A program made the position numbers and the translations under genes. 20,009 nt of DNA from a virus, in the IMG/VR virus record IMGVR_UViG_3300028393_000401, positions 1-20,009 of that record. One strand, given 5' to 3'. Of this stretch, positions 3,456 through 19,380 are shown piece after piece. How positions within the stretch are numbered: position 1 is the first letter of the stretch; every line of letters starts with the position of its first letter. Under the pieces are notes generated by a model. That model had not been told where the DNA came from, did not search any database, and saw nothing but the letters and a program-made list of their open reading frames with translations.

Positions 3456-4139
3456 CTACTTTGCAAGTATCTTCTCTATCTCTACCCTATGCTCCCCTAT
3501 GCCTCCCCAACTCCAATACTGCTTGCAATACACAGGCCAATCCTTCGGATGCAACCAAGTAAACTCTCTCCTATGGAACTTATATGCCCACTGACCCAAA
3601 GTATTAAACTCACTAAACTCATGCCCCGGCTGTCTCCCAATCCAATCCCCCACCTTACATCCATGCTTCTCCTCCATCCAGATCCTAAACGCCTTGTAAA
3701 TCCACCTCGGATAAATAATCGGTAAACGCCTCATATACTCGCCATCACACTTCCACCCAAGCGACCTAGCGGAAATCTCAAACCAAGGGCTTTCCACGCC
3801 CTCCTCACGCAAAATAACAGGCTTCCCATCAAGAAAGAAATCCTCTGGCCTAGTATCCCGATAAAACACGCAGTCACTATCCACATGAAGCACATACTCC
3901 CCCCTGCAAAACTCATCGGCATGGAGCTTGGTCACTTGCTGATCCAAATACCCAGTCAGTCTCTGCTCCACCAAATGAACCACCTCTCCCCCCACAGAGG
4001 GCATCGTCCCCATGTCAGAAGCAGGAATCGCCACATGGACTCCCCCAAACCCATCACAATACTTCTCCACAGACTTCAAGCTGTATTTCAGCCACTCCGC
4101 ATCCCCTGCATAGCTCCTATAAAAAATATCAATTGACAC
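3456..4139 (-). CDS. GT-A-type glycosyltransferase (family-2-like / DUF6492-like)
   Basis: A 227-aa protein with the layout of a small nucleotide-sugar transferase. An N-terminal Rossmann-like start (IDIFYRSYAGDAEWLKYSL) is followed by a Gln/Lys region (LDQQVTKLHADEF) and a DxD motif in HVDSDCVF (about residues 106-113), which in GT-A enzymes binds the metal and sugar nucleotide. A C-terminal part with EFSEFNTLGQWAY resembles the acceptor-side motif of DUF6492-type proteins. The start is GTG at 4139, preceded by GGAG at 6-nt spacing; an in-frame TGA lies two codons upstream, so no longer start exists. It is the first gene of the leftmost minus-strand block. It may glycosylate host surface or virion components; the target is unknown. 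Confidence 0.8.
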   Translation of the reverse strand: MSIDIFYRSYAGDAEWLKYSLKSVEKYCDGFGGVHVAIPASDMGTMPSVGGEVVHLVEQRLTGYLDQQVTKLHADEFCRGEYVLHVDSDCVFYRDTRPEDFFLDGKPVILREEGVESPWFEISARSLGWKCDGEYMRRLPIIYPRWIYKAFRIWMEEKHGCKVGDWIGRQPGHEFSEFNTLGQWAYKFHRREFTWLHPKDWPVYCKQYWSWGGIGEHRVEIEKILAK

Positions 4140-4484: not shown

Positions 4485-4733
4485 ATGTCTAAAAAAGCTA
4501 CAAACCTAAACATATCAGACGAACTCTACCTCAAAAACCAACAAAAACTTTACTCCAAAGCAACCCAACTCGCCTCGCAAGGAGCCGAGTTCTCCGACAT
4601 CGTTGGCCTCCTAAACGCAGAATACGCCCTACGCCTCAAAATATTCGTCCAACAGTTGCCTGAAAGCGTAGCCGAGCAGACGATCTACGGAAGAGCAGTG
4701 AAAGCACAGATAGTCAAACCAAAGAAGAAGTGA
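4485..4733 (+). CDS. Hypothetical 82-aa helical protein
   Basis: An 82-aa protein of unknown family, with basic ends (MSKKATN and VKPKKK) around a predicted all-helical middle (NQQKLYSKATQLASQGAEF, then a Leu/Ala-rich helix to about residue 60). No membrane segment is seen. The start has no SD and follows an A/C-rich leader (ATAAACACATCTTCCAATC), like several other genes here. It is the only plus-strand gene left of 6.9 kb and stands alone, divergent from the glycosyltransferase. It is followed by 500 bp of repeat-rich non-coding DNA. A small DNA- or protein-binding role is possible but unsupported. Confidence 0.65.
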   Translation: MSKKATNLNISDELYLKNQQKLYSKATQLASQGAEFSDIVGLLNAEYALRLKIFVQQLPESVAEQTIYGRAVKAQIVKPKKK

Positions 4734-4914
4734 CACTGGATTTTAGAAAAAATTGTATGGGGACTTTTGGAAAAAAAGAGGAATGAACCTTCCTTGGCCC
4801 AAGGGGGTGCCCGTCAGCTGTTATTCCCGCAAAAAGAATGCTTAAAAGTTAACTCCCCCCGCCTCGCTTCGCTCGGCGGTTGTTCGGGCACAAAGCCCTC
4901 ACTGGCAAGCACCA

Positions 4915-4928
4915 TGCCACCTCAACTC
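4915..4928. repeat. 14-bp direct repeat, left copy
   Basis: TGCCACCTCAACTC is identical to 9842-9855. In both places it follows a CCTCGCTTCGCTCGGC palindrome (4862-4877 on the left, 9810-9825 on the right) and is followed shortly by ACATCC. The pair brackets the HTH gene, the non-coding region and the amidoligase operon. Confidence 0.8.
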
Positions 4929-5014
4929 TGAAAGCCACATCCTCGCCTCGCTCCGCTCGGCGTAGTTCGGGCACAAGGCCCTCACCGCAACGCTCCACCC
5001 TAACTCGGACAACG

Positions 5015-5126
5015 CTCGGATGAAGTATCATCCTCGTATGCTTCGGGCTTAATGCCCTCGCATAGAGTTAACCCCCCCAGCCTCGCTTCGCTCGGCTGAT
5101 GTTCCTCGGATGAAGTATCATCCTCG
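5015..5126. repeat. 22-bp hairpin repeat, two exact copies
   Basis: The copies are 5015-5036 and 5105-5126. Each begins CTCGGATGAAGTATC and ends ATCCTCG and folds into GGATGA-AGTA-TCATCC. One GCCTCGCTTCGCTCGGC palindrome (5080-5096) lies between them. Confidence 0.85.
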
Positions 5127-5252
5127 GAACCCTCGTCCATAAAGGACTCGGCTCGCTATGACCGCAGTCTAGCTTCGTTCCAGCTTACTCTTGGCCGTCT
5201 TATTTTGCCTCCCGGCAAAACAAGGACTGGGACTTCAGTAAGCCTCCACTGG

Positions 5253-5756
5253 CTAGCCAGCTCGCTCTGGCAACGCTCCAGCCGCCACAAACGAGTCCAA
5301 ACTAAAACTCAACACATTCACACTCAACCCAGCCTCATCAGCCATGCTTGGGAATACCTTGCTTGCGGCGGTAGCCAAATCAACCATCCTCCTGCTGTTG
5401 TCCAATGCAGACAATCCATCCATCTCGGCTAAAGCCGAGCTAGATCGTGCTAACGCACCAGCCATGTTCGTCTTGAATGTGTGCGAGGAGTTCTCCAAGT
5501 GTTGGTTAAGTGCGTCAGCACTGTGTGACACAGGCGTTACATCTCCATGTCCATTCTCTCTTTTGATTGCCACAATCGCATCCGCTTTTGCTCGTAGCTT
5601 CTGCACATTGGTGGCAGTCTCCCATTGGTAGCGTTTAGCCCATTGTCTGATGGTGCTTTCTTTTATGCCGTGGAGTTGCCCTGTCTCTTTTAAACTGCCG
5701 GTAGCTACAAAGGTTGCTCGTACTTGTTCTCTGTCGATTGTGAGTGCTTTTGCCAT
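5253..5756 (-). CDS. HTH DNA-binding protein, small-terminase-like or regulator
   Basis: A 167-aa protein taken from ATG 5756 (MAKALTIDREQ); a 17-residue longer start at 5804 is possible but less natural. Residues about 8-45 form a helix-turn-helix (VRATFVATGSLKETGQLHGI, then ESTIRQWAKRYQWE), as in phage small terminase subunits and Trp-zone HTH proteins. A basic stretch (NVQKLRAKADAIVAIKRENG) and a helical Ala/Ser-rich C-terminal half follow. The role could be DNA recognition for packaging, but it sits 9 kb from terL inside the repeat-bounded module, so a regulator of the neighbouring operon is equally possible. Its last codons are built from the neighbouring repeat vocabulary. Confidence 0.7.
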   Translation of the reverse strand: MAKALTIDREQVRATFVATGSLKETGQLHGIKESTIRQWAKRYQWETATNVQKLRAKADAIVAIKRENGHGDVTPVSHSADALNQHLENSSHTFKTNMAGALARSSSALAEMDGLSALDNSRRMVDLATAASKVFPSMADEAGLSVNVLSFSLDSFVAAGALPERAG

Positions 5757-6037
5757 ATGCTTATTTAACTTAATATCATGAGCGTTACATCGTGTCGAGT
5801 TCATTTGGGGGAAAGGTCTTTCCCCCCGAATGAGCCAGCAAAGCTGTCTCCTTCTCCCCTTTCTAGCGGGGGTTCCCCCCGCAACGCCCCCAGAAACAGT
5901 GTAGCCTTCGGCTAATTGTCCACTATTGTTTTCATTTGTAGGTTGGTATTCTGCTCGTTGTTACGCCACTTATCGTCGTCGCTTTGGCTCCTCCTTAATT
6001 GGCTACAACGGCATGGTATATCCTGTTATGATCCAAA
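5757..6037. other. Non-coding region with strong hairpins
   Basis: No gene is seen. TCATTTGGGGGAAAG (5801-5815) pairs with CTTTCCCCCCGAATGA (5818-5833), a very long near-perfect inverted repeat just upstream of the HTH gene, well placed for an operator or leader hairpin. GCGGGG-GTTC-CCCCGC near 5866-5882 and TAGCC-TTC-GGCTA near 5902-5914 are further stems. None is followed by a T-run. Confidence 0.6.
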
Positions 6038-6808: not shown

Positions 6809-6942
6809 TTTTTAAGAAAAAAAATTTTCCGCTCCCGCTGGGAGCGGAAAGCTTCTTTTCTACCAACTTGCTAACGCTTTCCGCTTTAGCATCACACAAC
6901 AACCGAGTTGGTCGCTCGCTAACTGAACCAAACGCAGTATGA
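6799..6942 (+). CDS. Possible leader ORF (47 aa) coupled to the operon
   Basis: A frame starts at ATG 6799 (MLVLFKKKNFPLPLGAESFF) and ends at TGA 6940-6942. That stop overlaps the ATG of the next gene at 6939 in an ATGA arrangement, like genuine gene pairs in this window. It runs straight through the hairpins at 6826-6885, so ribosomes translating it would change which stem can form. The composition is not protein-family-like and no SD is visible. It may be a leader peptide used in attenuation or a chance frame. Confidence 0.3.
   Translation: MLVLFKKKNFPLPLGAESFFSTNLLTLSALASHNNRVGRSLTEPNAV
6826..6885 (+). promoter_or_regulatory. Mutually exclusive hairpins, attenuator-like
   Basis: Segment A TTTCCGCTCCC (6826-6836) and segment B GGGAGCGGAAA (6840-6850) form an 11-bp perfect hairpin with loop GCT. 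Segment B extended, AGCGGAAAGC (6843-6852), can instead pair 10 bp with segment C GCTTTCCGCT (6876-6885). A-B is followed on the plus strand by GCTTCTTTTCT, a weak terminator tail. On the minus strand A-B is followed by AATTTTTTTTC, a strong terminator, so it may also stop antisense transcription. Confidence 0.5.
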
Positions 6943-7088
6943 AAACAACACAAGATGCCAAATGGCAAAAATGGGAAACCGCCAAAATCCAAGCTGGCGG
7001 AATCCGCAAAGCAATAGCAAAAACAGCCGCATACACAGCGGTATTTGCATTCATTGTCTACATCGAAGCAGTTATCTTCTTCGTGTAA
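6939..7088 (+). CDS. Small single-pass membrane protein (49 aa)
   Basis: A 49-aa frame: a charged amphipathic N-terminal half (MKTTQDAKWQKWETAKIQ) with Lys/Arg up to about residue 28, then a hydrophobic segment (AAYTAVFAFIVYIEAVIFFV) to the C-terminus. It reads as a small N-in membrane protein. It precedes the amidoligase by 31 bp on the same strand and is probably the first structural gene of this operon. The start lacks SD but follows the CA-rich leader type (AACTGAACCAAACGCAGT). It could recruit the enzymes to the inner membrane. No homolog is recognised. Confidence 0.6.
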   Translation: MKTTQDAKWQKWETAKIQAGGIRKAIAKTAAYTAVFAFIVYIEAVIFFV

Positions 7089-7119
7089 ACGCAACCACAC
7101 CCAAACAACAACATTAACT

Positions 7120-8376
7120 ATGAACTACCAAGCCATCGTTAAGTCCCAAGGCTCGCTATATGCCGCTGGCCTTACCATCATGCAGGCTCGCAACTGGGGC
7201 ACATCCCCTCGCAATGCGGGTCTGTCAGACATACTAGAGCGTGATCAATTCAAACGCTTGCACGACATCTATCGCCGCAAGCAATGGTATACCAACGCAA
7301 CTAACACTGAAGAAACCACAAAGCTTGAGCGTGAGACTATGCGTAAAGTTTACCGCATGGCATTAGGTCGCCGCAAGTTTAGGGCAATCTTCCGCAAATA
7401 CTCGGTCAAAGATGTGTGGCGGCAAGTAACTCAACGCACAAATATATATATCGGTTGCGAATTAGACCTGCAACTACGAAAAGAAATTGGTTATGCCATA
7501 CACAAGCTGGAAAAGGCTCACATCGACAGCAATATCATAACTAAAGTCGAGAAGCCGCTCTATGAGTCAATGCCGCTCTACACTTGCTCTGGTGAGCTTG
7601 AGGCAACCAGCATGGATACATTCCGCATCCGCAAGCTTGCCAAAGGCAAAAGCTCTGCAAGCAGTCGCCATGAGTATTGGAAGCACTCGGCTCATCTGAA
7701 CTTCGCTCGTGATGGCGGAGGGCAGGCAGAGACGCAGTTCCTCATCCGTCCAGAACTCACTCGCATTGTATGCGGTCTGGTTCGCACACTGGGCAGTCAA
7801 TCCCGCAATGGTGGTCACATCCACATTAACTGCGGCAAAAACGAAGCCATAGGCGAGAGCGTCTATTCAGCACTGCGTTATAACCTGACTTGGATGCGTT
7901 GGCTTGTTCCATACAGCCGCCGCTCCGGGCACTGGTCGCAGATGAATACTGTCTGTTGCTCGTTCAATCGTGCAAAATCAGTTAAGGCAACAGCCTTATC
8001 TGCAAACACTTGGAACAGAACAGGCACTGTAGAGATGCGTCTGTGGGGCACTTCCAAGAAAGTCGAAGACTGGATCGGTCGCCGTGACATCATGCAGGCA
8101 ATAGCCAAGTGGTCAGAATGGCAAGATGTAGATAGCCTTAACAGCTATCCACTTGCAGAAGAGACAACCCGCATTGCTTGGCCCGAGTTCGTTCGCTGGT
8201 CATCAGTTAACGCACCAGAGGCTCTTGCATATGCATTGCGTGTAATCCGCAAAAAGTGCAGAGCGGCATCAACGCCACAGAAAGACAGGGAAGCCTGCAA
8301 CCTACTCTGGCAAGAGTTTGAAGCAACAGGCATCCGAGTCCGTGGCTTTCGTCGCCGTAACCCAGTCGTATTATGA
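7120..8376 (+). CDS. Amidoligase-family enzyme (glutamine-synthetase-like fold)
   Basis: A 418-aa protein. The start is ATG 7120 (MNYQAIVKSQG), after the CA-rich leader AAACAACAACATTAACT; the upstream in-frame ATG at 7045 lies inside the previous gene. Residues 1-105 are a basic helical extension. The amidoligase signature follows: IGCELD (111-116, equivalent of the family's GxExE start), ARDGGGQAETQF (197-207), GGHIHIN (231-237) and NRTGTVEMRLWGTS (299-312, equivalent of N...TVEFR). Such enzymes use ATP to join an amine to a carboxylate, forming amide bonds, often in cell-wall or peptide modification. The glutamine amidotransferase two genes downstream would supply ammonia. The ATGA overlap with the next gene implies coupling. 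The substrate is unknown. Confidence 0.85.
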   Translation: MNYQAIVKSQGSLYAAGLTIMQARNWGTSPRNAGLSDILERDQFKRLHDIYRRKQWYTNATNTEETTKLERETMRKVYRMALGRRKFRAIFRKYSVKDVWRQVTQRTNIYIGCELDLQLRKEIGYAIHKLEKAHIDSNIITKVEKPLYESMPLYTCSGELEATSMDTFRIRKLAKGKSSASSRHEYWKHSAHLNFARDGGGQAETQFLIRPELTRIVCGLVRTLGSQSRNGGHIHINCGKNEAIGESVYSALRYNLTWMRWLVPYSRRSGHWSQMNTVCCSFNRAKSVKATALSANTWNRTGTVEMRLWGTSKKVEDWIGRRDIMQAIAKWSEWQDVDSLNSYPLAEETTRIAWPEFVRWSSVNAPEALAYALRVIRKKCRAASTPQKDREACNLLWQEFEATGIRVRGFRRRNPVVL

Positions 8377-8621
8377 AACAGAGAAAACACAAAGCTGGAG
8401 ACACCAGAGAAGACGGATTCAGATACTGGGGGCTTCAGCATAAAAAGCGGAAATCTGGCTGGAAGACATACGAGGTCTGGCTCTCTCCAGAAACCTACCA
8501 GAAGCAAATTGAATACAACAGGGTAAGAAGCCGCAGGGTTGCTAAAGAAAAATCCTACAGGCTTCGCAAAAAACCATTCCTTGCACGACTTGCAAAGGCA
8601 TGGACAACAATCGTCGGTTAA
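8373..8621 (+). CDS. Basic 82-aa protein, HNH-associated-type domain without HNH
   Basis: An 82-aa, very Lys/Arg-rich protein starting at ATG 8373, overlapping the amidoligase stop as ATGA. GDTREDGFRYWGLQ, then KTYEVWLSPETYQK, resembles a short beta-strand module (DGF...GYxxx..YExWxSPE) that often precedes HNH nuclease domains in phage proteins. Here no His-Asn-His motif follows, only a basic helix (RVRSRRVAKEKSYRLRKK). It might be a nucleic-acid-binding adaptor or a decayed HNH endonuclease fragment. Being sandwiched between the amidoligase and the amidotransferase with tight spacing argues that it is expressed with them, possibly as substrate or accessory. Confidence 0.65.
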   Translation: MKQRKHKAGDTREDGFRYWGLQHKKRKSGWKTYEVWLSPETYQKQIEYNRVRSRRVAKEKSYRLRKKPFLARLAKAWTTIVG

Positions 8622-8643
8622 CAACAATAAAGGAAACAACATT

Positions 8644-9660
8644 ATGTGTAAATTAGTCGGATGGACATCAAGCAAGAATAATCCACTTGCAAAAGCAATG
8701 GCAGATGCGGCACTACAAGCCGCTCACGATCAGATCAGAAAAACCGAGCGTGACGGCTTCGGCTACGCACAGGCTGGTTCGACTGGCCTTCGTGCCCGAT
8801 ACCTCGACCCGCATGAGTTCCACGATATGAATGGGATTCCGAATCTATATCGCAGAGCTGGCAAGATGGCAGAAGCCTTCGCAACCACCTATCGCACAGC
8901 CCACGAGGGCAGTTACAAGCCAGACCGTCATATGATCGGTCACGGCAGAACAGCCACTTGCGGCATCAACCTAGAGAATGTGCATCCGTTCCGCAGGAGC
9001 GGTTGGACACTCGCCCACAATGGCGTGATCAACTGGGAAGGCCCAAAGTGCAAATCACACGAGAAAGTAACTTGCGACAGCCAGCACTTGCTTATCGCAA
9101 TGGCTGACAACACGCCAATGCTCAAGCGTAAGGAGCAATTGGAACACATCAGCGGTTACGCCGCTTTCCTTGCACTTAACCCGCAAGGCAAGCTTATCGT
9201 TGCCGTTGACGACAGGGCAAGGCTCTACGCTGGCATAACTAGCAAAGAGCGTTGGATCTTTGGCACCACGCCAGAGATTGTCGAAGCCGTCGCAGATGCA
9301 TGGAACTGCAGTGGAGTCACTGCTTATCCACTAGCCGCTTGGACTTGGCTTGAGTTTGCCGAAGGTGGCAAAGAGCCAGAGTTAAGCGACTGGAAGCACA
9401 AGCAGGCGACAACCCGCCAGCTTGGTTTTGCCTCGCAAAGCCTCGGCAAAGGCTGGGACAAGTCAACGCACCGCAAACGCAAGGAATACCCTGCGTCATC
9501 AGCCGGGGCTTGGCAGTATAGCAACTACGGATCAGCCAGTAACAGCAGTGCTACTTGGCTATCCGCACACGAGGCCGCAGAACAGCGGGAGCATATGACT
9601 GAAGCGGATGCCATCGCCGCAGTTGACGCTTCCGAACTCGGAATCGGAGACTACAAGTGA
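8644..9660 (+). CDS. Class II glutamine amidotransferase (Ntn-type GATase)
   Basis: A 338-aa protein. ATG 8644 is chosen because it places the nucleophile at Cys2 (MCKLVGW), as the N-terminal-nucleophile family requires; the start follows AAAGGAAACAACATT. Visible signatures are RDGFGYA (36-42), GHGRTATCG (99-107, Arg binding the glutamine carboxylate), HPF (114-116), AHNGVIN (124-130) and CDSQHL (144-149). It should hydrolyse glutamine and deliver ammonia. The domain ends near residue 240; the last 100 residues are a Lys/Ser/Trp-rich tail with no known domain. There is no sugar isomerase or synthetase domain as in GlmS or AsnB, so the amidoligase upstream is the likely partner. Confidence 0.88.
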   Translation: MCKLVGWTSSKNNPLAKAMADAALQAAHDQIRKTERDGFGYAQAGSTGLRARYLDPHEFHDMNGIPNLYRRAGKMAEAFATTYRTAHEGSYKPDRHMIGHGRTATCGINLENVHPFRRSGWTLAHNGVINWEGPKCKSHEKVTCDSQHLLIAMADNTPMLKRKEQLEHISGYAAFLALNPQGKLIVAVDDRARLYAGITSKERWIFGTTPEIVEAVADAWNCSGVTAYPLAAWTWLEFAEGGKEPELSDWKHKQATTRQLGFASQSLGKGWDKSTHRKRKEYPASSAGAWQYSNYGSASNSSATWLSAHEAAEQREHMTEADAIAAVDASELGIGDYK

Positions 9661-9749
9661 GCAACAGCCGTAAACGACTTCTGGAATGGCTGATCGCCTT
9701 CTGGCTCGTCGCAATGGCTACTTGCGTTAACGATCACTTCAGACAATAA
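9657..9749 (+). CDS. Tiny membrane peptide (30 aa) at operon end
   Basis: GTG 9657 overlaps the amidotransferase TGA (GTGA), giving VSNSRKRLLEWLIAFWLVAM then ATCVNDHFRQ. It has positive residues at the N-terminus followed by one hydrophobic segment (LIAFWLVAMATC). The cysteine after the hydrophobic stretch is faintly lipobox-like, but the match is weak. It lies 8 bp before a strong terminator, so it is the last gene of the operon if real. Overlap, position and membrane character support it; length limits confidence. Confidence 0.5.
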   Translation: MSNSRKRLLEWLIAFWLVAMATCVNDHFRQ

Positions 9750-9757
9750 CAGAATCT

Positions 9758-9794
9758 GGGTCGGGGGGCTTACGCCTCCCGGCCCTTTTTTTTT
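9758..9794 (+). terminator. Strong Rho-independent terminator of the amidoligase operon
   Basis: GGGTCGGGGGGC (9758-9769) and GCCTCCCGGCCC (9774-9785) form a 12-bp stem with two G-T wobbles and loop TTAC, followed by nine T (9786-9794). Confidence 0.93.
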
Positions 9795-17821: not shown

Positions 17822-18100
17822 TTAAAACTCTCCAATATAGGATGGCGGGATTTCGTTAACTTCTTCTGGGACAACTGCAAGGTTATGGAGGTCAGAGACA
17901 ATACTGGCTCGTCCAGCATCATAACCAAACAGCACATGGCTATTGGATGCCACTTGCAGGATAGCGTTAGTGCTTCCAAGGGCTTTAGCGGCAGTAAGCG
18001 AATCCACAACGGATAATGCTTTCTGGATAACAGGCAAGGCAAGTGCCTCCTTTAACTGCGAGGCAAGACTTACATCATGCCTCCACTCTTCGTATGTCAT
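17822..18100 (-). CDS. Hypothetical 92-aa phage protein
   Basis: A 92-aa protein of unknown family. It is helical at the N-terminus (MTYEEWRHDVSLASQLKEAL) and ends with a polar part (VPEEVNEIPPSYIGEF). VLFGYDAGRASIVSDLHNLA resembles the GYxxGxxxxLxxL turn of small proteins that occur next to phage portal or scaffold genes. It overlaps the ATP-grasp stop as ATGA and lies 3 bp before the scaffold-like gene, so it may be a head-assembly accessory; this is inference from context. Confidence 0.68.
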   Translation of the reverse strand: MTYEEWRHDVSLASQLKEALALPVIQKALSVVDSLTAAKALGSTNAILQVASNSHVLFGYDAGRASIVSDLHNLAVVPEEVNEIPPSYIGEF

Positions 18101-19380
18101 TTAATTAAGTCTTTTTTCTTTGGGAGCTTTTCATCACTGAAGATTATCCCATGCTCTTCAGCTTTAGTGATTTCATCAAGACCATCAATAAGAGAGTCCG
18201 TATTAACCACCACATTAAATCCATCTACAGATTCGGCGTGATCTTTGCAAGCATTAATTGCTTCTTCCATAGTGCCGCCAACGCCGATGCAATCCCCAAT
18301 CTCAATCATCTTAACTCCATCTGTGGGGATGATATAGCCTTGGCCTTCAATGTTTGCGTAGTTACGCCACTTAATCCACTGATCCACTTCTGGATCGTTG
18401 CTAACTGGGCACCAGCGTTCTGCGGCAAAGTCAGAAGTGATGACGGCTAACGCACCATACTTATATCTCCACTCTGGCTCAACCAGATCACCATTAGCTC
18501 CACCCTCCACAATGTCCGCCACATTATCAATCATCTCCCAATACAGGGCAGATGGAGGGGCTGGACAGCGGGTAGTGAGGTCAATGAGATAAGGCGTGTT
18601 ATCCTCCGTAACTCGGATTTCCGTGGAGAACCACTGGCGATATTCAGCTTCAGCTAGAAACGGAGCCAACTTCTCGTTAACAATCCTAACTGGATCTGAC
18701 AGCTTTGAGTAATCACGGATAGCACCAAGGTAGCCCTTGTCCTTAATCTCAACCCCTGTAAGGCAAGTAGATGGGAACTTGCCATCAATGCAGAAGCCGT
18801 CATAACCAGCTTCCACAACACTCTCCACCTTATGCTCTACAACAAACGGAAACACCTCACAGGCTCCACCAAGGTGATCCCAAAGCTCGTTCATGCGAGG
18901 CTCTGCTGTCTTCCAATTTTTGGAATGGAAGGTTTCGGCTAGTCCACGGAAGCCGCTTATCTTCACATAGACATCCTCGTTATCCTCAAGATAAGATCGA
19001 AGGTTGCTCATCCCGGTAACAAGCTCACACTTGCCCACAGGAAGCCCCAAGGATTTCATGGTTTCCTTGGCCCTCCACCTCTGGACTTCCAGCTTCTCTC
19101 CTAGACCAGCCCCCCAGACCTTGTAGCCTCTGGAGCGTAGCCATTCCTGCAACTGGTAGAATCCCACATCTGGGAACACAATGAAGTCAACTTCATCCAC
19201 GAGCCTCCACATATCCTCGACCCGCTCCACGCCTTCAATGCCATCCCCAACCATAGCTGGGCCATGCTTTGGAAACGAGCGGTCAGCGTAGGGAACGAAG
19301 TAATAAACCTCGTGCATCTCTCCCAGCCTCTTTGCGAAGCTGGTGAAAATTCCGTGGTCAATTACTAGGCACTTGCTCAT
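18097..19380 (-). CDS. ATP-grasp ligase-like protein
   Basis: A 427-aa protein with ATP-grasp features. A Rossmann-like N-terminal part (MSKCLVIDHGIFTSFAKRLG, then VDFIVFPDVGFYQLQEWL) precedes GLGEKLEVQRWRAKETMKSL (92-111), typical of the helix before the grasp. VYVKISGFRG (137-146) holds the ATP-binding Lys140. FSTEIRVTEDNTPYLIDLTT (251-270) with RCPAPP (271-276) gives the Glu254, Asp267 and Arg271 set that binds Mg-ATP in PurD/carboxylate-amine ligases. It should activate a carboxylate as acyl phosphate and join it to an amine or thiol. The substrate is unknown. It overlaps the previous gene by 23 bp and the next as ATGA. It might cooperate with the amidoligase/GAT cassette, but it is distant. 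Confidence 0.83.
   Translation of the reverse strand: MSKCLVIDHGIFTSFAKRLGEMHEVYYFVPYADRSFPKHGPAMVGDGIEGVERVEDMWRLVDEVDFIVFPDVGFYQLQEWLRSRGYKVWGAGLGEKLEVQRWRAKETMKSLGLPVGKCELVTGMSNLRSYLEDNEDVYVKISGFRGLAETFHSKNWKTAEPRMNELWDHLGGACEVFPFVVEHKVESVVEAGYDGFCIDGKFPSTCLTGVEIKDKGYLGAIRDYSKLSDPVRIVNEKLAPFLAEAEYRQWFSTEIRVTEDNTPYLIDLTTRCPAPPSALYWEMIDNVADIVEGGANGDLVEPEWRYKYGALAVITSDFAAERWCPVSNDPEVDQWIKWRNYANIEGQGYIIPTDGVKMIEIGDCIGVGGTMEEAINACKDHAESVDGFNVVVNTDSLIDGLDEITKAEEHGIIFSDEKLPKKKDLIK

Follow-up and report, generated by a model that had tools for sequence, protein, structure and literature searches.

A divergent amidoligase and glutamine amidotransferase pair accompanied by membrane micropeptides in phages: a putative minimal amidation module

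The 20,009 nt phage sequence studied here (IMG/VR record IMGVR_UViG_3300028393_000401, hereafter the window) carries a plus-strand unit at 6939-9749 with five open reading frames (ORFs), among them a divergent amidoligase of the glutamine-synthetase (GS) fold, a class II glutamine amidotransferase (GATase), and two micropeptides with predicted transmembrane (TM) segments. Compact two-enzyme units of this kind occur in some freshwater phages. The unit is interpreted with moderate confidence as a minimal glutamine-dependent amidation module, probably membrane-associated and acting on the host envelope. The amidation chemistry of the two enzymes is well supported as a predicted activity, and the target and purpose of the module are inferred by analogy. 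The window matched a 37.5-kb IMG/VR contig with 99.995% identity over the 18.4 kb compared.

Organization of the unit

The unit comprises the following features, with an intrinsic terminator directly 3′ of the last ORF.

6939-7088, plus strand: head micropeptide, 49 aa, C-terminal TM segment (maximum hydropathy 2.44), equivalents at the operon head in four clades
7120-8376, plus strand: divergent GS-fold amidoligase, 418 aa from ATG, assigned by predicted fold and motifs
8373-8621, plus strand: basic protein, 82 aa, pI 10.8, an insertion seen only in this phage
8644-9660, plus strand: class II (N-terminal nucleophile, Ntn; Cys2) GATase, 338 aa, starting MCK, assigned by profile, alignment and Foldseek
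9657-9749, plus strand: tail micropeptide, 30 aa, GTG start, one TM segment (maximum hydropathy 2.04), GTGA-coupled to the GATase
9758-9794, plus strand: intrinsic terminator, 12-bp stem with 10 GC pairs, T9 tail, z-score -6.5

All other sizeable genes of the window are on the minus strand, with the exception of 4485-4733, which agrees with the original prediction of a five-gene operon running opposite to nearly everything else and ending in a strong terminator. The overlapping gene ends that had also been described were found at two of the four junctions, as ATGA at 8373-8376 (amidoligase and 82-aa gene) and GTGA at 9657-9660 (GATase and tail micropeptide), while 31 and 22 nt separate the genes at the other two junctions. 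No Rfam matches were obtained within the window.

Amidoligase

Pfam, PHROGs, NCBIfam and PADLOC gave no significant match for the amidoligase, and its profile found no match in a PDB sequence search. The Pfam model PF12224 (Amidoligase_2, gathering cut-off 22 bits) did not match the window protein and was matched by only 3 of 17 relatives, the best of which (18.4 bits, E-value 0.0022) stayed under the cut-off. The profile search suggested for both enzymes thus recognised the GATase, which exceeded the cut-off of PF13522, and failed for the amidoligase.

At the level of structure, the AlphaFold model had a predicted local distance difference test (pLDDT) value of 87, and placed all four conserved motifs on or beside beta strands. 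Foldseek queries against the PDB gave two high-probability matches, 1tt4 (YbdK, a carboxylate-amine ligase; probability 1.00) and the Pup ligase PafA (4bjr; probability 0.87-0.84), both of which are GS-fold carboxylate-amine ligases, with modest TM-scores of about 0.3-0.4. In the BFVD structure collection, 19 matches were found at E-value ≤1e-3, reaching probability 1.00, and most of the named ones were phage amidoligases. The four motifs are as follows.

7588-7605, plus strand: SGELEA (residues 157-162; E159, E161), invariant in 17 relatives, counterpart of G-I/F-E-V-E-L-E in known phage amidoligases
7711-7731, plus strand: DGGGQAE (D198, E204), family form DGGGQxE, counterpart of DGSLRDGKE (DGSLxxGxE)
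7807-7830, plus strand: NGGHIHIN (H233, H235), family form NGGHIHxN, counterpart of STHLHMD (STHxHxD)
8026-8052, plus strand: TVEMRLWGT (E305, R307), family form GTxExR, counterpart of SIEFRG (GSxEFR)

Of the motifs named in the original prediction, GGHIHIN and TVEMRLW belong to stretches that are fully or almost invariant among the 17 relatives. GCELD is not kept in the relatives and was discarded as a catalytic motif, the conserved E-x-E motif being SGELEA. The order of the E-x-E, DG..E, HxH and ExR motifs is that of the LUZ24, UFV-P2 and phiEco32 enzymes. In hhalign, the motifs of the 17 amidoligases lined up with those of these three known ones at a low, non-significant probability, and the assignment is therefore made by fold. 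At that level the predicted structure settles the product of 7120-8376 as a GS-fold carboxylate-amine ligase, with the motif order also fitting, and the predicted amidoligase identity is borne out.

Glutamine amidotransferase

The GATase scored 28.4 bits against PF13522 (GATase_6, cut-off 27), and C2, R102, N126-G127 and D145 were invariant in an alignment of 15 GATases. The model had a mean pLDDT of 65 and was confident over the catalytic core only; its Foldseek matches were PurF, EgtC and GlmS. A PDB sequence search with the GATase profile gave no match. On the basis of profile, catalytic residues and modelled fold, the identification of the product of 8644-9660 as a Cys2 class II (Ntn) GATase, with predicted activity, is right, as had been proposed.

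Distribution of the enzyme pair

A profile scan of 2.9 million viral contigs, which started from a profile of two sequences, found the amidoligase family on 26 contigs (loci with the prefix L below), and an enlarged profile of 17 sequences recovered the identical set. The GATase adjoined the amidoligase in all 25 contigs that continue beyond the amidoligase gene. In most contigs the GATase directly follows the amidoligase, the order is reversed in L028 and L029, and the window phage differs by the 82-aa gene inserted between the two. The amidoligase and GATase trees shared the same two deep clades and had compatible subclades; the median end branch was 0.77 for the amidoligase versus 0.23 for the GATase, so the amidoligase has evolved about three times faster. 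Genomic contexts were otherwise unrelated, and only one group had the TerS-like, TerL, DnaB and exonuclease genes of the window.

The survey of relatives upheld the predicted gene set in part, as membrane micropeptides accompany the constant enzyme pair in most loci, and the 82-aa gene is carried by no relative. Loss of both the GATase and the small genes from related loci, which had been named as the outcome speaking against the prediction, was accordingly not the pattern found. A host or prophage source of the cassette was considered and set aside, as the GATase profile, in one scan of bacterial genomes, produced only two weak matches and no close relative.

The 82-aa protein had no relative in phages (tblastn at E-value 1), in the viral scan, or in phmmer queries over all loci, and the weakest hint was an HNH family (phrog_3106, E-value 0.64). 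In UFV-P2, an HNH gene occupies the amidoligase and GATase junction where the window phage has the 82-aa gene, which indicates that the junction tolerates insertions and makes the 82-aa insertion unremarkable. The suggestion that this basic protein is a substrate, tag or component of the system was consequently rejected, and judged from sequence comparison it is probably outside the conserved system.

In clade 3 (L016, L017, L020, L023, L025, L014) the genes flanking the pair encode a conserved 119-aa protein (MRKVT...) and, instead of the tail micropeptide, a 91-97-aa protein (MS..LLKPIDTGG...). No significant NCBIfam model matched the latter.

Membrane micropeptides

All four clades have a TM peptide of about 30 aa heading the operon. 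The head ORF directly precedes the amidoligase gene in the window and in L003, L005, L010, L011, L012, L015, L018, L021, L024, L026 and L027, lies one gene further upstream in L014, L016, L017, L020, L023 and L025, and in the reversed L028 a TM ORF precedes the GATase gene. At the tail, a TM ORF of about 30 aa begins no more than a few bases from the stop codon of the GATase in 11 of the 12 scored cassettes, from two clades, against a background of comparable TM ORFs at 12 of 247 other gene ends (about 5%) in the same loci; given that these loci are not independent of one another, the contrast is not a formal probability. Between related phages the micropeptide ORFs have changed mostly at synonymous positions, with five synonymous and no nonsynonymous changes in the tail ORF of L009 and L010, and synonymous (pS) and nonsynonymous (pN) values of 0.80 and 0.23 in the head ORF of L018 and L021.

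No significant Pfam family was found for the micropeptides, and nine known phage amidoligase cassettes contained no convincing TM micropeptide equivalent. Two unannotated short ORFs lie near the phiEco32 amidoligase. Conservation within the family and absence from the nine cassettes support the view that the membrane peptides are genuine, previously undescribed components. A tentative proposal is that the enzyme system has them as obligate parts, serving either as adaptors dedicated to the membrane or as a ribosomally made substrate, in which case the phage would encode an amidated membrane peptide.

Comparison with known systems

The nearest functional parallels are the cassettes of phiEco32, LUZ24, UFV-P2, PA11 and RIO-1, named a "peptidoglycan modification cassette" (Iyer et al. 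2009, as far as relayed in PMC10580990 and PMC5498523). Such phage cassettes have been proposed to modify peptidoglycan against superinfection (PMC5498523, PMC10580990). As in the phiEco32/LUZ24 type, the window unit has a GS-fold amidoligase next to or near a co-oriented class II GATase, for which a glutamine-dependent reaction at the host cell wall, amidation or ligation, is proposed. It differs by an amidoligase that escapes PF12224, by TM micropeptides that are lacking there, and by the absence of the COOH-NH2 (GCS-like) ligase PF14395, of the gamma-glutamyl cyclotransferase (GGCT) and of an adjacent ATP-grasp ligase, since the only candidate for the last, a PurD-like protein, lies elsewhere and in one clade only. 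Neither PF14395 nor GGCT was found on the 37.5-kb contig. The unit may work like the phiEco32/LUZ24/RIO-1 cassette, yet by the full definition it is not a member; it probably represents a reduced, divergent form related to those phage modules for which an alteration of the host cell wall is assumed.

Among annotated relatives, the siphovirus ctUh1700 (MW202637) is the closest, and it has a similarly compact pair with a small ORF, in the order amidoligase, 43-aa ORF, GATase. No GATase in the phage collection is closer than that of ctUh1700 (37% identity over about 105 columns, hhalign 98%). In contrast to the window, ctUh1700 encodes an amidoligase that PF12224 recognises clearly (62.7 bits, 684 aa), and the small ORF lies between the enzymes with a hydropathy of 1.6, below the TM threshold. 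The OM43 phages MEP401/402 likewise have amidoligase (PF12224) and GATase (PF13522) genes together as auxiliary genes (PMC10580990), with the difference that this amidoligase is recognised by PF12224. The cellular MurT/GatD system (PMC3267633) is similar in outline, as an ATP-dependent ligase there amidates a carboxylate of the cell wall with ammonia from a GATase; it consists of a Mur-ligase relative and another type of GATase instead of a GS-fold and class II Ntn pair, and is thus an analogy only. None of the PADLOC anti-phage defence models was matched by the five proteins scanned.

Proposed mechanism and alternative explanations

Glutamine is the ammonia source of class II GATases, and GS-fold ligases use ATP to activate carboxylates. 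From this known chemistry, the pair most likely makes a primary amide: the Cys2 nucleophile of the GATase would hydrolyse glutamine, and the ammonia would be passed to the amidoligase, which would activate a carboxylate with ATP and convert it to the amide. The constant company of membrane micropeptides suggests that this work takes place at the inner membrane, where the most likely role of the one or two single-pass, co-translated peptides is to anchor or arrange the two enzymes. By analogy with the published phage cassettes (PMC5498523, PMC10580990), the likeliest target would be a membrane-proximal carboxylate of the host envelope, for example in the stem peptide of a peptidoglycan precursor, and the likely benefit would be an infected cell shielded from competing phages, or tuned lysis. 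Action at the host membrane or on peptidoglycan is, on these grounds, plausible. The module is best read as a self-contained, oppositely transcribed, moron-like element, and chances are about even for this explanation as a whole.

Several observations weigh against this interpretation. Target and membrane recruitment are both inferred, and the TM calls on the micropeptides derive from hydropathy only. L013 has no head TM peptide, and clades 3 and 4 (L014, L016, L020, L028) have the head peptide and no tail one. Neither PF14395 nor GGCT (PF06094) was detected in 11 family records, which may be incomplete, while LUZ24 as positive control gave both. In the literature found, no test of the peptidoglycan hypothesis, which dates from 2009, was reported.

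Two alternatives concern the role of the micropeptides. They could themselves be the substrates, each resembling a ribosomally synthesized and post-translationally modified peptide (RiPP) that is amidated at an acidic residue to give a membrane-active or exclusion peptide. This is unlikely, even if the peptide genes directly adjoin those of the modifying enzymes, the amidoligase evolves faster than the GATase, and an acidic residue borders the hydrophobic stretch in many of the peptides; in most head and tail peptides of the window's clade this is the Glu in LLEW, LIEA, LVEA, VAEF or IFVEA, or an Asp or Glu near the tail C-terminus. The peptides are highly divergent with no invariant acid, the TM-edge Glu is missing from the head peptide of L012 and the C-terminal acid from the tail peptides of the L015/L018/L021 clade, and the cassette has no leader/core organisation, protease or exporter. 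An equally low probability is given to a virion protein or soluble host protein as the target, with the micropeptides as separate small membrane effectors on a shared transcript. PafA, the second structural match, is a GS-fold ligase of protein side chains, and the micropeptide partners vary between clades, but the head micropeptide is kept across otherwise unrelated gene contexts, which argues for its linkage to the enzymes.

More doubtful is a role in auxiliary metabolism, in which the unit would amidate a small metabolite or supply nitrogen metabolism, a reading offered for the amidoligase and GATase genes of Phage-ZRK32 (PMC10945688), as the bacterial-genome scan gave no close cellular homologue and a linkage to membrane micropeptides is unexpected for a soluble metabolic step. 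The least probable explanation is a dispersed peptidoglycan modification cassette of the seven-gene type, with the following gene providing the third enzyme.

18097-19380, minus strand: PurD/ATP-grasp-like protein, 427 aa, PDB profile E-value 0.01, missed by Pfam and PHROGs

LUZ24-type cassettes do include an ATP-grasp enzyme, and this gene was present in 5/5 searched records of the window's clade, its product being 71-77% identical in related freshwater phages. However, the gene is about 8 kb away on the opposite strand, its product is weakly PurD-like, it is missing from its usual place in L003, and it occurred in 0/6 searched records of other clades, all of which keep amidoligase and GATase. 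It is probably not a partner of the pair.

Leader hairpin, repeats and neighbouring genes

Upstream of the cassette is a hairpin element that is terminator-like on both strands.

6815-6882, no strand given: leader hairpin region, GC-rich, T-runs on both sides, followed by ACGCTTTCCGC, z-scores -4.8 and -6.1

The ACGCTTTCCGC stretch could alternatively pair with the 3′ arm of the hairpin, GCGGAAAGC. In L003 the cassette lies between two copies of the element (2697-2853 and 5619-5774), direct repeats of about 155 nt that are 77-90% alike. An alternative-structure leader or a recombination site are possible roles. Other repeats of the window include CCTCGCTTCGCTCGGC repeats with two 45-46-nt direct repeats in the intergenic region 4847-5150, similar to CTTCGCTCGG repeats in L003, and three tandem copies of a 45-nt unit with the 26-nt core TTTTCTGCAAATGCTTCATCAATAAC at 236-351.

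Genes for a glycosyltransferase (PF00534; 10019-11152, minus strand) beside the cassette and a DUF6492 protein (3456-4139, minus strand) were identified in the window, and a further glycosyltransferase-like protein in L081 (756-1787, minus strand). The phage seems to be rich in candidates for surface or DNA glycosylation.

Implications

The family adds to the known phage amidoligases one that is missed by present profile libraries. Known cassettes have seven or more genes, which is partly why the hypothesis on their function is without a reported test, whereas the window lineage has two enzymes and one or two peptides of about 30 aa. Such a two-enzyme module is small enough to reconstitute, and the conserved micropeptides direct attention to the membrane and offer a starting point for finding the substrate. 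If the micropeptides are indeed obligate, these phage units would form a class of two-enzyme amidation modules, tethered to the membrane, that has not been described before.

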